The notes under the pieces: generated by a model
Told to the model about the DNA's origin: nothing
The model's input: the letters and a program-made list of their open reading frames with translations, nothing else
Database searches by the model: none
From: Rhodospirillales bacterium
GTDB lineage: Bacteria; Pseudomonadota; Gammaproteobacteria; Burkholderiales; Burkholderiaceae_D
Length of the DNA: 64,000 bases
Reading direction: 5' to 3'
Assembly: GCA_903970305.1 (NCBI GenBank)
Contig: CAJCID010000008.1
Span: 1 to 64,000, forward strand
Program-made: the position numbers and the translations under genes
Shown: in pieces, positions 59,127 through 63,657 of the stretch
Numbering within the stretch: position 1 is the first letter of the stretch
Layout: every line of letters starts with the position of its first letter

Positions 59127-59717
59127 GTGGGCAAACGCTTGACGCAGATCGCCACCCGTACCGGGGATGATGGAACCACGGGCCTGGGTGACGGCTCGCG
59201 CACCGACAAGGACAGCCTGCGCATCACTGTCCTGGGCGACATCGACGAACTGAACAGCGTCATCGGCCTGCTGCGCACTGAAGCCCTCCCCGCAGAGATC
59301 GACAATGCGCTCTCGGACATCCAGCACGATCTGTTCGATCTTGGCGGCGAGCTTTCGATCCCAGGATATACGATGCTCGGGCCTACCCAGGTGGCAAGAC
59401 TCGACGAGTGGCTTGAAGAGTACAACGCGGGCCTGCCCAGGCTTGCCGAATTCATCCTGCCCGGAGGCAGTCGCGCGGCCGCGCTCGCCCACCTTGCGCG
59501 CACGGTATGCCGCCGCTCCGAGCGCGCTTTGGTGGCCCTGGCCCGGACCGAGCCGGTACAAGATGCCGCGCGCCAATATGTGAACCGCCTCTCCGATCTT
59601 CTCTTTGTTCTAAGCCGCGTCTTGAACCGCCATGCCGGAGGGCAGGACGTGCAGTGGCAACAGAGAAAGAACGCCGATTCCTCCCCGGAAGCCGGAACCG
59701 ACGGGACGACCGGCTAG
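59127..59717 (+). CDS. ATP:cob(I)alamin adenosyltransferase, PduO type
   Basis: A 196-residue PduO-type enzyme. The N-terminal TRTGDDGTTGLGDGSRTDKD binds ATP, and LGDIDELNSVIGLLRTE and ARTVCRRSERALVAL are the conserved helical blocks. It makes adenosylcobalamin from cob(I)alamin and ATP. The start is GTG at 59127 after a GAGGAG ribosome binding site. It overlaps the convergent aroG by 4 bp. The C-terminus past HAGGQDVQW is a polar tail. Confidence 0.92.
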   Translation: MGKRLTQIATRTGDDGTTGLGDGSRTDKDSLRITVLGDIDELNSVIGLLRTEALPAEIDNALSDIQHDLFDLGGELSIPGYTMLGPTQVARLDEWLEEYNAGLPRLAEFILPGGSRAAALAHLARTVCRRSERALVALARTEPVQDAARQYVNRLSDLLFVLSRVLNRHAGGQDVQWQQRKNADSSPEAGTDGTTG

Positions 59718-60832
59718 AATACTGCCAGGCGTTCTGCGCCGCCCCGCGAGGTTCGGGTCGTCGCCAAGAGGCGCCGTCGCTCGCGCACCGCTTCGGCCAG
59801 ACGCTGCAGGCAGGCGACGCTTGCATCCCAACCCAGGCAGCCATCGGTGAGGCTCTGGCCGTAGGTCAGCGCGACCCCTTCGAGCAGGTCCTGCCGGCCT
59901 GCGACCAGATGGCTTTCGATCATCACGCCGATGATGCGGGACTCGCCTGCGGCAATCTGGGCGGCGATGTTGTCGCAGACGTGGGTCTGGTTTTCCGGAT
60001 TCTTCTGGCTGTTTGCGTGGCTCGCGTCAATCATCAGACGCTCTGCGAGTCCCCCCGAGGCGATCTGAGCACAGGCTGCAGCAACGCTTGCTGCGTCGAA
60101 ATTGGGGACCTTGCCTCCCCTTAGGATCAGATGGCAGTCGTCGTTACCGTTGGTCGAGACAATTGCCGAATGTCCGCCCTTGGTGACCGACAGGAAATGG
60201 TGCGGCTGGGACGCTGCCTTGATCGCGTCGATCGCGATTCGCACGTTGCCATCGGTGCCGTTCTTAAAGCCCACCGGACAGGACAGACCTGATGCGAGTT
60301 CGCGGTGGACCTGGGATTCGGTCGTGCGCGCCCCGATGGCGCCCCAACTGACGAGGTCCGCGATGTACTGGGGTGTGATCATGTCGAGGTACTCGCAGCC
60401 CGCCGGCAGACCCATCTCGTTGATGTCGAGCAGCAACTCCCGAGCCATGCGCAGACCTTTGTTGATCTGGAAACTTCCATCCAGGTCGGGATCGTTGATG
60501 AGACCCTTCCAGCCTACGGTCGTGCGCGGCTTCTCGAAGTACACACGCATGACGATCTCCAGATCGCCGGCGTACTCGGCGCGCTTTTCAGCGAGCCTTT
60601 GAGCATAGTCGCGGGCGGCATGCACATCGTGGATCGAGCAGGGGCCGATCACGACCAAGAGACGGTCATCTTCTCTCTGCAGGATCCCATGGATGTTCTG
60701 GCGCGCCTGATAAGTTGTCGCGGACGCCTTCTCCGTGCAGGGAAACTCGCGCACGAGATGGGACGGAGGCGATAACTCTTTGATCTCCCGGATCCTGAGG
60801 TCATCGGTGTTATGGGGCATCGGGTTCTCCAC
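59714..60832 (-). CDS. aroG: 3-Deoxy-7-phosphoheptulonate synthase (DAHP synthase, type I)
   Basis: A 372-residue type I-alpha DAHP synthase, the first enzyme of aromatic amino-acid synthesis, joining phosphoenolpyruvate and erythrose 4-phosphate. IGPCSIHDVHAARDYA, MRVYFEKPRTTVGWKGLINDP and GARTTESQVHRELASGLS are the family signatures, with GGHSAIV and DASHANSQKNP near the active site. The start is 60832 or 60820 (MPHNTDD). Expression is very probably controlled by the Phe/Tyr-rich attenuator at 60850-60991. Confidence 0.94.
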   Translation of the reverse strand: MENPMPHNTDDLRIREIKELSPPSHLVREFPCTEKASATTYQARQNIHGILQREDDRLLVVIGPCSIHDVHAARDYAQRLAEKRAEYAGDLEIVMRVYFEKPRTTVGWKGLINDPDLDGSFQINKGLRMARELLLDINEMGLPAGCEYLDMITPQYIADLVSWGAIGARTTESQVHRELASGLSCPVGFKNGTDGNVRIAIDAIKAASQPHHFLSVTKGGHSAIVSTNGNDDCHLILRGGKVPNFDAASVAAACAQIASGGLAERLMIDASHANSQKNPENQTHVCDNIAAQIAAGESRIIGVMIESHLVAGRQDLLEGVALTYGQSLTDGCLGWDASVACLQRLAEAVRERRRLLATTRTSRGGAERLAVF

Positions 60833-60849
60833 TTCATTTTGAACAGGTC

Positions 60850-60882
60850 AAAAAAAACCGCCAGGTTTGAGCCTGGCGGTTT
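60850..60882 (-). terminator. Rho-independent terminator of the aroG leader (attenuator)
   Basis: On the minus strand AAACCGCCAGG pairs perfectly with CCTGGCGGTTT (11 bp, 6-nt loop), followed by a run of eight T residues. It lies between the leader peptide and the aroG start. The first arm can instead pair with CTGGCGGT at the end of the leader ORF (60924-60931). Confidence 0.9.
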
Positions 60883-60910
60883 CGGGATTCGGGTTGCAGA
60901 ACTTCGCGCG

Positions 60911-60991
60911 CTAACCTCTCTCCACCGCCAGTTGGCCGGGAAAGTAGAAGTAGCTGTAAAAGAAGGCGCCTTGGCGCAACGTTTTTTGCAT
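60911..60991 (-). CDS. Phe/Tyr-rich aroG leader peptide
   Basis: A 26-residue ORF from ATG 60991 to TAG 60911-60913, beginning MQKTLRQGA. Residues 10-17 are FFYSYFYF: seven aromatic residues in eight positions. It resembles leader peptides of pheA and other aromatic operons. Ribosome stalling at the Phe and Tyr codons would leave the antiterminator segment free. The ORF is too short for most gene callers and lacks a good Shine-Dalgarno sequence. The predicted promoter places its ATG only a few nt after the transcript start. Confidence 0.85.
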   Translation of the reverse strand: MQKTLRQGAFFYSYFYFPGQLAVERG

Positions 60992-61000
60992 GGTGCCAGG

Positions 61001-61030
61001 ATAGTAACCCTCCGATCGCCCGTCTGGCAA
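61001..61030 (-). promoter_or_regulatory. Candidate promoter of the aroG leader
   Basis: On the minus strand TTGCCA (61025-61030), an 18-bp spacer and TACTAT (61001-61006) fit a sigma70 promoter. The predicted transcript start, near 60994, is only about 3 nt ahead of the leader-peptide ATG, so the leader message would be nearly leaderless. Confidence 0.55.
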
Positions 61031-61126
61031 GTCGATCTGTGTGTCGATCTTTCAGACCCAGGTTCCGGGCCGCCCGTGCCCACCTGTTCGGTCTTGCTCG
61101 CAATGAGCGATCCTGGATCAGTTCGC

Positions 61127-61175
61127 TTGAAGCGACCCCTTGAAGCGACCCTTGAAGCGACCCTTGAAGCGACCC
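61127..61175. repeat. Tandem repeat, four units of ttgaagcgaccc
   Basis: Four head-to-tail units of a 12-bp sequence (the first is 13 bp, with one extra c). The array is 80 bp upstream of the gene at 61255 and about 100 bp from the aroG promoter. The repeats are not in a recognised coding frame and could affect local transcription. Confidence 0.85.
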
Positions 61176-61254
61176 TGTCTGCCGCCGGGTCTTCCTCGAA
61201 AGCCCCGCTGAAGTCGTTATGCTTCGGGTGGACTGCTATTCTGAGGAGGAGGAG

Positions 61255-62181
61255 ATGGCGACCGAATTCAGCCTCGATGAGGCTCTACGACGGGTTGCGA
61301 CGATTGGCGAATGCCACTGGACCAAGGCGTGGTTCGCCGCGGGCCGACTGGTGCGGCGTGTGCCCGCCCTGCGCGGCGCGGTCCTCGAGGCCGTCCGGAA
61401 TTCAGACTGGGAGTCTGCGCCCCAGTGCACCGGACCGGTTGTCGATGGGATGCTAAGGCCAGAGCGATTCGCCGCGGGCCGGGGATTGCGGCTCATTGCA
61501 CGCGGGCTTTTTCCGGCGGCGTATGTGGCTGCGCACGACTGGGTTGGCGAGGCGCGCACGCCCGCAGAGGGATTTGCTCGATTGGTCGATACGCTCAAGG
61601 CGCGCGCGGTCAACGAGTCTGGCCACCTTGGTCATGGCTTTTCGATCTGGGCCGGATATGCCGACTTAGCCGAATCCGGTCTCTTGCACGACGCCCCGCG
61701 TCGCACGCGCATGGCGACCGAGCGCTTTGCCGAATTTGTCGCCCAGGCCCTGCCGGGCTTCCCGGTCGGCGAAAACGACTGGGCCGTGGCCCCGTTTGGC
61801 GAGGCGGCCCCGCGCAGGCTCTCCCAGGTCTTGGACCAGGTTCTCGAGGGACCCGGATTTTTCGGGCATAACCTCATCCTCTTGTCGCACGCCTTGCGCT
61901 ATCGCCCCAAGCTTTCGGATGACCACTGGCACCGGCTGCTTGCCCAGGCCGAGGCTGCGGCGCAGGACGCGCTCTCCGAAAACACTGGTGGCAGGCCGGA
62001 GACTGCCGGGCACTCGGAGGATCTTGACTCGGCCGACCTCGAAGCGGCCCTCGCGCGCCACTTAAGGCGCAAGCCCGGCAACGTGCATCGCGTCACACTT
62101 TGCGATGCGACCCTGACGCTGGTCGAAGTCGCGAATCCGCGCCAGCAGGGTGCCTTGGTCGAACTGCTCGATGCGCTCTGA
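61255..62181 (+). CDS. Uncharacterised protein, no family recognised
   Basis: A 308-residue predicted cytoplasmic protein without a signal peptide or TM segment. The AGGAGGAGG run just upstream supports the start at 61255, and an in-frame ATG at 61219 is possible. It has many conserved-looking His and Trp residues (GECHWTKAWFAAGRLVRR, ESGHLGHGFSIWAGYADLAE and FFGHNLILLSHALRYRP), which could bind a metal or cofactor. It is divergent from aroG and converges on tldD. I could not assign it. Confidence 0.7.
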   Translation: MATEFSLDEALRRVATIGECHWTKAWFAAGRLVRRVPALRGAVLEAVRNSDWESAPQCTGPVVDGMLRPERFAAGRGLRLIARGLFPAAYVAAHDWVGEARTPAEGFARLVDTLKARAVNESGHLGHGFSIWAGYADLAESGLLHDAPRRTRMATERFAEFVAQALPGFPVGENDWAVAPFGEAAPRRLSQVLDQVLEGPGFFGHNLILLSHALRYRPKLSDDHWHRLLAQAEAAAQDALSENTGGRPETAGHSEDLDSADLEAALARHLRRKPGNVHRVTLCDATLTLVEVANPRQQGALVELLDAL

Positions 62182-62190
62182 TGAACCCGA

Positions 62191-63657
62191 TCAGTGATCG
62201 CCGGTGCCGCCCACGGTCAGGCCATCGACCCGAAGCGTGGGCTGACCCAGGCCCACCGGCACGCTTTGACCATCCTTGCCGCAAGTGCCCACACCCCCAT
62301 CCAGGCGCATGTCGTTGCCGATCATCGACACATGGGTGAGGACATCGGGACCGTTGCCCACGAGCGTGGCGCCTTTCACCGGATAGGTGATCTTGCCCTT
62401 TTCGATACGGTAGGCTTCGGTCGTCGAGAAGACGAACTTGCCGTTGGTGATGTCGACCTGGCCGCCGCCAAAATTCACTGCATAAAGGCCGTCCTCGACC
62501 GAGGCGATGATCTCCGCCGGATCGCGCTGGCCGTTGAGCATATACGTGTTGGTCATGCGCGGCATGGGCAGGTGGGCGTAGGACTCGCGCCGGCCGTTGC
62601 CGGTCACGGCGGTCTTCATCAGGCGCGCATTGAGCGTGTCTTGCATGTAGCCCTTCAAAATCCCGTTCTCGATCAAGACGGTGCATTGCGTGGCATTGCC
62701 TTCGTCGTCCATGTTGAGCGAGCCGCGCCGTTGGGGCAGCGTGCCATCGTCGACGATCGTGATGTCGGGTGCGGCGACGCGTTGGCCGACGCGTCCGGCA
62801 AAGGCTGAGGAACCCTTCCGGTTGAAGTCGCCCTCCAGTCCGTGTCCGATCGCCTCGTGCAAGAGGATGCCCGGCCAGCCGGGACCCAGAACGACGGTCG
62901 TCGGGCCTGCCGGCGCGGGTCGCGCTTCCAGATTGATGAGGGCTTCGTCGACGGCCTCGGCGCTATAGCCGGCTAGGACTTCGTCCGTGAAGGCGGCGTA
63001 GTCGTAGCGCCCGCCACCGCCTGCGCTACCCTGTTCGCGGCGCCCGCCCTGCTCGACGATGACCGAGAGCGACAGGCGCACCAGCGGACGAACATCCGCG
63101 GCGAGCACGCCATCGCTGCGCGCGATCAACACGACATCATATTCCCCGGTCAAGGAAGCCATGACCTGGCGCACCCGAGGGTCGCGCTGGCGTGCCATCT
63201 GCTCGATCTTCTCGAGCAGCTGCACCTTCGCCGTCGAATCGAGCGATCCCAGGGGATCCGTCTTCACATAAAGGCCCCGCGAACGGCCCTTCGCGGCGTG
63301 GGCACCCACGCGCGCGCGTCCCGCGCCCTGGGCGGCGATGCTGCGGGTCGCCTGTGCGGCAGCCCGAAGCGCCGCGACGCTGATCTCGTCCGAATAAGAA
63401 AACGCCTGGCGCTCGCCGCAGACCGCGCGCACCCCGACGCCTTGGTCGATGCCAAAGCTGCCTGACTTGACAATCCCCTCCTCCAGATTCCAGCTTTCGA
63501 AGCGGGTGTATTGGAAGTACAGATCGGCGTAGTTGACCTTGTGCTGGAAGATCTCGCCCAGCGCGTGACCCAGATCATCCTCGGTGAGGCCATACGGGGT
63601 CAACAGCAGTGACTTGGCAGTCGAAAGAGCGGCAATGTCGGGTTCAATGAGTTTCAT
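62191..63657 (-). CDS. tldD: Metalloprotease TldD
   Basis: A 488-residue TldD with the zinc motif LLHEAIGHGLEGDFN and the conserved GDGGVGTCGKDGQSVPVG-like end, where GGVGTCGKDGQSVPVGLGQPT is visible. With TldE (not in the window) it degrades peptides in toxin and antitoxin processing (CcdA) and microcin B17 maturation. The order tldD next to a carbon-nitrogen hydrolase is known in Burkholderiales. It lies 16 bp after the hydrolase stop. Confidence 0.93.
   Translation of the reverse strand: MKLIEPDIAALSTAKSLLLTPYGLTEDDLGHALGEIFQHKVNYADLYFQYTRFESWNLEEGIVKSGSFGIDQGVGVRAVCGERQAFSYSDEISVAALRAAAQATRSIAAQGAGRARVGAHAAKGRSRGLYVKTDPLGSLDSTAKVQLLEKIEQMARQRDPRVRQVMASLTGEYDVVLIARSDGVLAADVRPLVRLSLSVIVEQGGRREQGSAGGGGRYDYAAFTDEVLAGYSAEAVDEALINLEARPAPAGPTTVVLGPGWPGILLHEAIGHGLEGDFNRKGSSAFAGRVGQRVAAPDITIVDDGTLPQRRGSLNMDDEGNATQCTVLIENGILKGYMQDTLNARLMKTAVTGNGRRESYAHLPMPRMTNTYMLNGQRDPAEIIASVEDGLYAVNFGGGQVDITNGKFVFSTTEAYRIEKGKITYPVKGATLVGNGPDVLTHVSMIGNDMRLDGGVGTCGKDGQSVPVGLGQPTLRVDGLTVGGTGDH

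Follow-up and report, generated by a model that had tools for sequence, protein, structure and literature searches.

A candidate Phe/Tyr transcription attenuator in the aroG leader of Burkholderiales and other proteobacteria

DAHP synthase catalyses the first step of the shikimate pathway, and in Escherichia coli its gene aroG is under the control of the TyrR repressor. In the 64,000-nt stretch of contig CAJCID010000008.1 analysed here (the window), aroG is preceded by a short ORF rich in phenylalanine and tyrosine codons, raising the question of whether translation of this leader governs transcription of the gene. A sequence-only reading of the window had proposed such a Phe/Tyr attenuator, consisting of a 26-codon leader ORF with seven Phe/Tyr codons in eight positions, a perfect 11-bp rho-independent terminator and, at the ORF end, an 8-nt repeat able to pair with the first terminator arm. 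All three elements were recovered, and the attenuator reading was supported by the conservation of the leader ORF and its pairing, by covariation and by RNA folds. That reading did not include the hairpin between segments 1 and 2, the absence of a Shine-Dalgarno sequence, the occurrence beyond Burkholderiales or the Trp codons carried by about half of the leaders in relatives. Overall, the aroG leader is very probably a ribosome-mediated transcription attenuator sensing the charging of Phe- and Tyr-tRNA.

Organisation of the aroG leader

The features of the locus are listed from aroG outwards.

59714..60820, minus strand: aroG, encoding DAHP synthase, the putatively regulated gene (NCBIfam NF006723, AroG equivalog)
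60850..60857, minus strand: U-run of the intrinsic terminator, eight U's (sequence)
60855..60865, minus strand: segment 4, second terminator arm, CCTGGCGGTTT (sequence and folds)
60872..60882, minus strand: segment 3, first terminator arm, AAACCGCCAGG (sequence and folds)
60911..60991, minus strand: leader ORF, 26 codons and a TAG stop, MQKTLRQGAFFYSYFYFPGQLAVERG (ORF, with similar aromatic-rich leaders in relatives)
60924..60931, minus strand: segment 2, CTGGCGGT, repeating 8 nt of arm 4 within the ORF tail, predicted partner of arm 3 as antiterminator (sequence and folds)
60934..60944, minus strand: segment 1, forming the 5' side of the predicted 1:2 hairpin and sharing bases with the last aromatic codon (MFE fold)
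60941..60964, minus strand: control codons 10-17, FFYSYFYF, with four Phe and three Tyr (7/8 aromatic)
61001..61030, minus strand: candidate sigma-70 promoter, -35 box TTGCCA (61030-61025), 18-bp spacer, -10 box TACTAT (61006-61001) (promoter scan)

The aroG product scored 587.5 bits against the AroG equivalog model (cut-off 568), and its ATG at 60820 is preceded by GGAGA. Across all six reading frames of the window, no stretch other than the aromatic run of the leader ORF reached seven Phe/Tyr per eight codons, and no such stretch occurred in 60 first-order Markov random windows. The leader ORF possessed no Shine-Dalgarno sequence, the match being no better than in shuffled sequences. The candidate promoter, which sits just outside the interval of the earlier reading (ending at 60991), was the sole promoter-like site within 60700-61250 (9/12 matches; shuffle mean 0.1). 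It ends 9 nt ahead of the leader ATG, and transcription is predicted from usual promoter spacing to start about 3 nt before this ATG; the same arrangement recurs in leaders L005 and L132. About 100 bp upstream of the promoter lies a tandem array (61126-61176) of 4.2 copies of the 12-bp unit CTTGAAGCGACC with 97% matches, and a 320-aa ORF on the opposite strand (61219-62181, plus strand), lacking a Pfam match, occupies the region between aroG and tldD.

The whole terminator (60882-60850) comprises a stem of 11 Watson-Crick pairs closed by the loop CTCAAA and followed by the U-run. A simple terminator scan did not pick it up, apparently because greedy stem extension eats into the U-run. With the aroG ATG just 29 bp beyond the U-run, there is hardly any room for a second promoter. 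The 8-nt match of segment 2 to arm 4 had a chance frequency of 0.8% in randomised leaders.

Conservation and covariation among relatives

The aroG genes of relatives were found by protein searches, and the DNA upstream was then scanned for the leader and terminator. Among 36 genomes searched from the window's family, one lacked aroG and another ended at a contig end, leaving 34 assessable genomes, of which 32 carried an aromatic-codon leader and a CCGCC/GGCGG terminator ahead of the main aroG. Both were also present before aroG in 6/20 genomes of the order that belong to other families. Named genomes with the element belonged to Burkholderia, Paraburkholderia, Caballeronia, Bordetella, Cupriavidus, Massilia and Janthinobacterium and, beyond Burkholderiales, to Xanthomonas, Stenotrophomonas, Dyella, Rhodanobacter, Bradyrhizobium, Devosia and Mesorhizobium, so that it spans three classes (beta-, gamma- and alphaproteobacteria). 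No leader was found in other named genomes, including those of Thauera, Azoarcus, Chitinimonas, Methylotenera, Photobacterium, Pantoea and Dickeya, nor in the upstream regions of aroG paralogs with about 50% identity (0/18), and no Ralstonia aroG was present among the matches listed, which were plasmid records. The two family genomes possessing aroG with no leader in the 600 bases upstream were L017 (G013) and L113 (G010); L017 has a small genome (~2.2 Mb), with an apparent tldD-like gene end directly upstream of aroG.

Among 66 representative leaders, 35 contained Phe and Tyr codons only and 30 contained Trp codons as well. Leaders of the latter kind in Xanthomonas and Bradyrhizobium (L073, L075, L091) carry codons for all three aromatic amino acids, each of which may be sensed by a single leader. 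In some Xanthomonas and Bradyrhizobium leaders, the stop codon lies more than 20 nt past segment 2, farther than in the window, so that segment 2 would not be fully covered by a ribosome that has reached the stop. Based on a strict test, the promoter spacing that predicts a leaderless start was seen in only 6 of the 66 representatives (1.0 expected), and Massilia-type and other leaders seem to carry longer untranslated leaders. A universal leaderless promoter was rejected, the position profile showing no single -10 box common to all lineages.

The GGCGG core of segment 2 was found 3' of the aromatic codons in 60/65 representatives, compared with 7.3 expected from shuffling. It occurred in all three leader codon frames, eight of the 60 core-bearing representatives having it in a different frame, and its distance from the last aromatic codon was most commonly 11 nt (28/60), as in the window, followed by 17 nt (16/60). 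A distance of 11 nt approximates the reach of the ribosome's leading edge. Beside the core, segments 2, 3 and 4 change jointly by lineage (T/A/T, A/T/A or C/G/C), at a site that is the second codon position in the commonest frame, so that the amino acid changes too. Matching changes in the three segments adjoining the core can be seen in L015, L046, L048, L058, L063 and L129. Pairing between segment 2 and arm 3 exceeded that of shuffles, which ignore phylogeny, at positions -1 (p = 0.001), -3 (p = 0.0006) and +1 (p = 0.0005). These covariation figures use an unbiased anchor; the first test, in which the segment 2 register was picked by pairing score, was biased. On the sequences compared, segment 2 is evidently kept as RNA, even where it falls in other reading frames.

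This bears on the possibility that the leader encodes a small protein conserved for its own function, with the terminator doing no more than balancing leader against aroG transcript levels. Such a role would fit the peptide tail SSPxAVEKR, kept in much of the window's family, and the trpL leader peptide of Sinorhizobium meliloti has a role in trans (PMC7298713). However, the leader peptides diverge greatly between families and had no match in NCBIfam or Pfam, and the conserved tail overlaps RNA segments 1 and 2, the second of which persists in other codon frames; a small-protein function is thus considered very improbable.

The specificity of the element was also assessed with an unbiased DNA pattern representing segments 2, 3 and 4 (TGGCGG-N-CCGCCA-N-TGGCGGTTTT), blind to ORFs and genes. 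Across 60 genomes it gave nine matches, one per genome, all directly upstream of aroG by coordinates, and the reversed control pattern gave none. The alternative in which the hairpin simply terminates transcription arriving from upstream, next to a coincidental F/Y-rich ORF, appears even less plausible than a small protein: a strong intrinsic terminator does lie just upstream of aroG, but its U-run faces aroG only, the next identified minus-strand gene upstream (TldD, 62191-63657) ends more than 1.2 kb away, and conservation extends jointly to the leader, segment 2 and terminator, with the three-segment pattern confined, in the genomes searched, to the region ahead of aroG.

Alternative folds and the proposed regulatory steps

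The full leader folded with a z-score of -3.5, and none of 200 shuffles was equally stable. When the RNA ended just past arm 3 and its 5' part was removed, mimicking a ribosome positioned over the aromatic codons, segment 2 paired with arm 3 (-26.3 kcal/mol), the pairing that the sequence-only reading had proposed from the repeat. Once arm 4 was added, the terminator formed and segment 2 went into the 1:2 hairpin in the fold of the window leader. The predicted folds of the window leader thus give the complete set of alternatives of classical attenuators (1:2, 2:3 and 3:4). Among the representatives, 51/65 were predicted to lock the GGCGG core into an upstream hairpin, with a mean z-score of only -0.64.

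Simulated ribosome positions were compared across 87 leaders. Arm 3 formed on average 6.8 pairs with upstream RNA when the ribosome was stalled mid-run and 4.5 when it was at the stop (p = 4e-11), with a mean of 4.6 when no ribosome was present. At equilibrium with arm 4 present, the terminator dominated nearly all simulated states; antitermination must accordingly be kinetic, since with every segment in place the terminator fold is the more stable one. Control of the terminator by a riboswitch or a protein, with no need for a ribosome, would draw on the alternative folds that the window leader adopts without translation, but the window had no match in Rfam and conservation concerns an ORF containing aromatic codons in a run rather than a structured aptamer, making this about as improbable as the plain terminator.

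From the four-segment anatomy, conservation and covariation observed here, we infer the following steps for the ribosome-mediated attenuator. RNA polymerase would start just ahead of the leader ATG, and a ribosome would translate the leader. With plentiful Phe and Tyr, it would pass codons 10-17, reach the stop and cover segment 2, allowing segments 3 and 4 to form the terminator and preventing aroG transcription. If charged Phe- or Tyr-tRNA were scarce, the ribosome would stall within the aromatic run, melting the 1:2 hairpin and freeing segment 2, whose GGCGG core in the window starts 11 nt beyond the final aromatic codon; segment 2 would then capture segment 3 ahead of the synthesis of segment 4, and transcription would continue into aroG. 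If translation did not occur, segment 2 would be held by the 1:2 hairpin and termination would be the default.

In Ralstonia solanacearum, aroG1- and aroG2-lacZ fusions with about 600 bp of upstream DNA dropped 2-3 fold in the presence of 1 mM Phe in strains deleted for the other aroG, a repression reported without a mechanism (PMC6379268). This effect is suggestive as circumstantial support for the attenuator, and may have another cause. An unlikely additional function is that the terminated leader RNA of about 140 nt, probably leaderless, could, like rnTrpL of Sinorhizobium, serve in trans as a small RNA or as an mRNA for the peptide, coupling aromatic amino acid supply to other genes.

Relation to known attenuators and significance

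The aroG leader displays the traits of an attenuator: a short ORF rich in codons for pathway products, an intrinsic terminator between this ORF and the gene, and a 2:3 antiterminator that is exclusive with 3:4 and covaries (relative to shuffles that ignore phylogeny). Judged from its sequence and that of its relatives, it appears to be a real, conserved and well-formed Phe/Tyr attenuator. Attenuation of this kind is known, and the family seems uncatalogued: no description of this aroG attenuator was found in the literature searched, although older attenuator surveys may contain it.

Among known systems, pheA and pheST are Phe attenuators of enterobacteria. They share with the aroG leader a Phe-rich leader peptide, antiterminator and terminator alternatives and the sensing of tRNA charging, but differ in the gene and leader sequence, whereas the aroG leader mixes Phe and Tyr codons and has segment 2 within the leader ORF. 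The pheA attenuator is listed in PMC1183508. The trpLE(G) attenuator of S. meliloti (rnTrpL) is ribosome-dependent and leaderless, its RNA beginning at the leader ATG (PMC7298713), and for the window's aroG leader promoter spacing places the predicted start no more than about 3 nt from the ATG; the S. meliloti system differs in its Trp codons, its target trpE and its demonstrated role in trans. Compared by description only, the uORFC-13-1 motif upstream of aroF in Acholeplasma, a candidate Phe-sensing uORF with a terminator (PMC8632094), resembles the aroG leader in combining these two elements ahead of a DAHP synthase gene, but it is described as encoding at least one Phe and has been reported only from Acholeplasma and unidentified environmental sequences.

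The element suggests that attenuation controls aroG in many beta-, gamma- and alphaproteobacteria, in contrast to the TyrR control of E. coli. It is also a candidate cause of the Phe repression of Ralstonia aroG. The family could enter Rfam and help annotate short ORFs, and the shift between leaders with Phe and Tyr codons only and those also containing Trp codons offers a natural test of which amino acids are sensed in each lineage.
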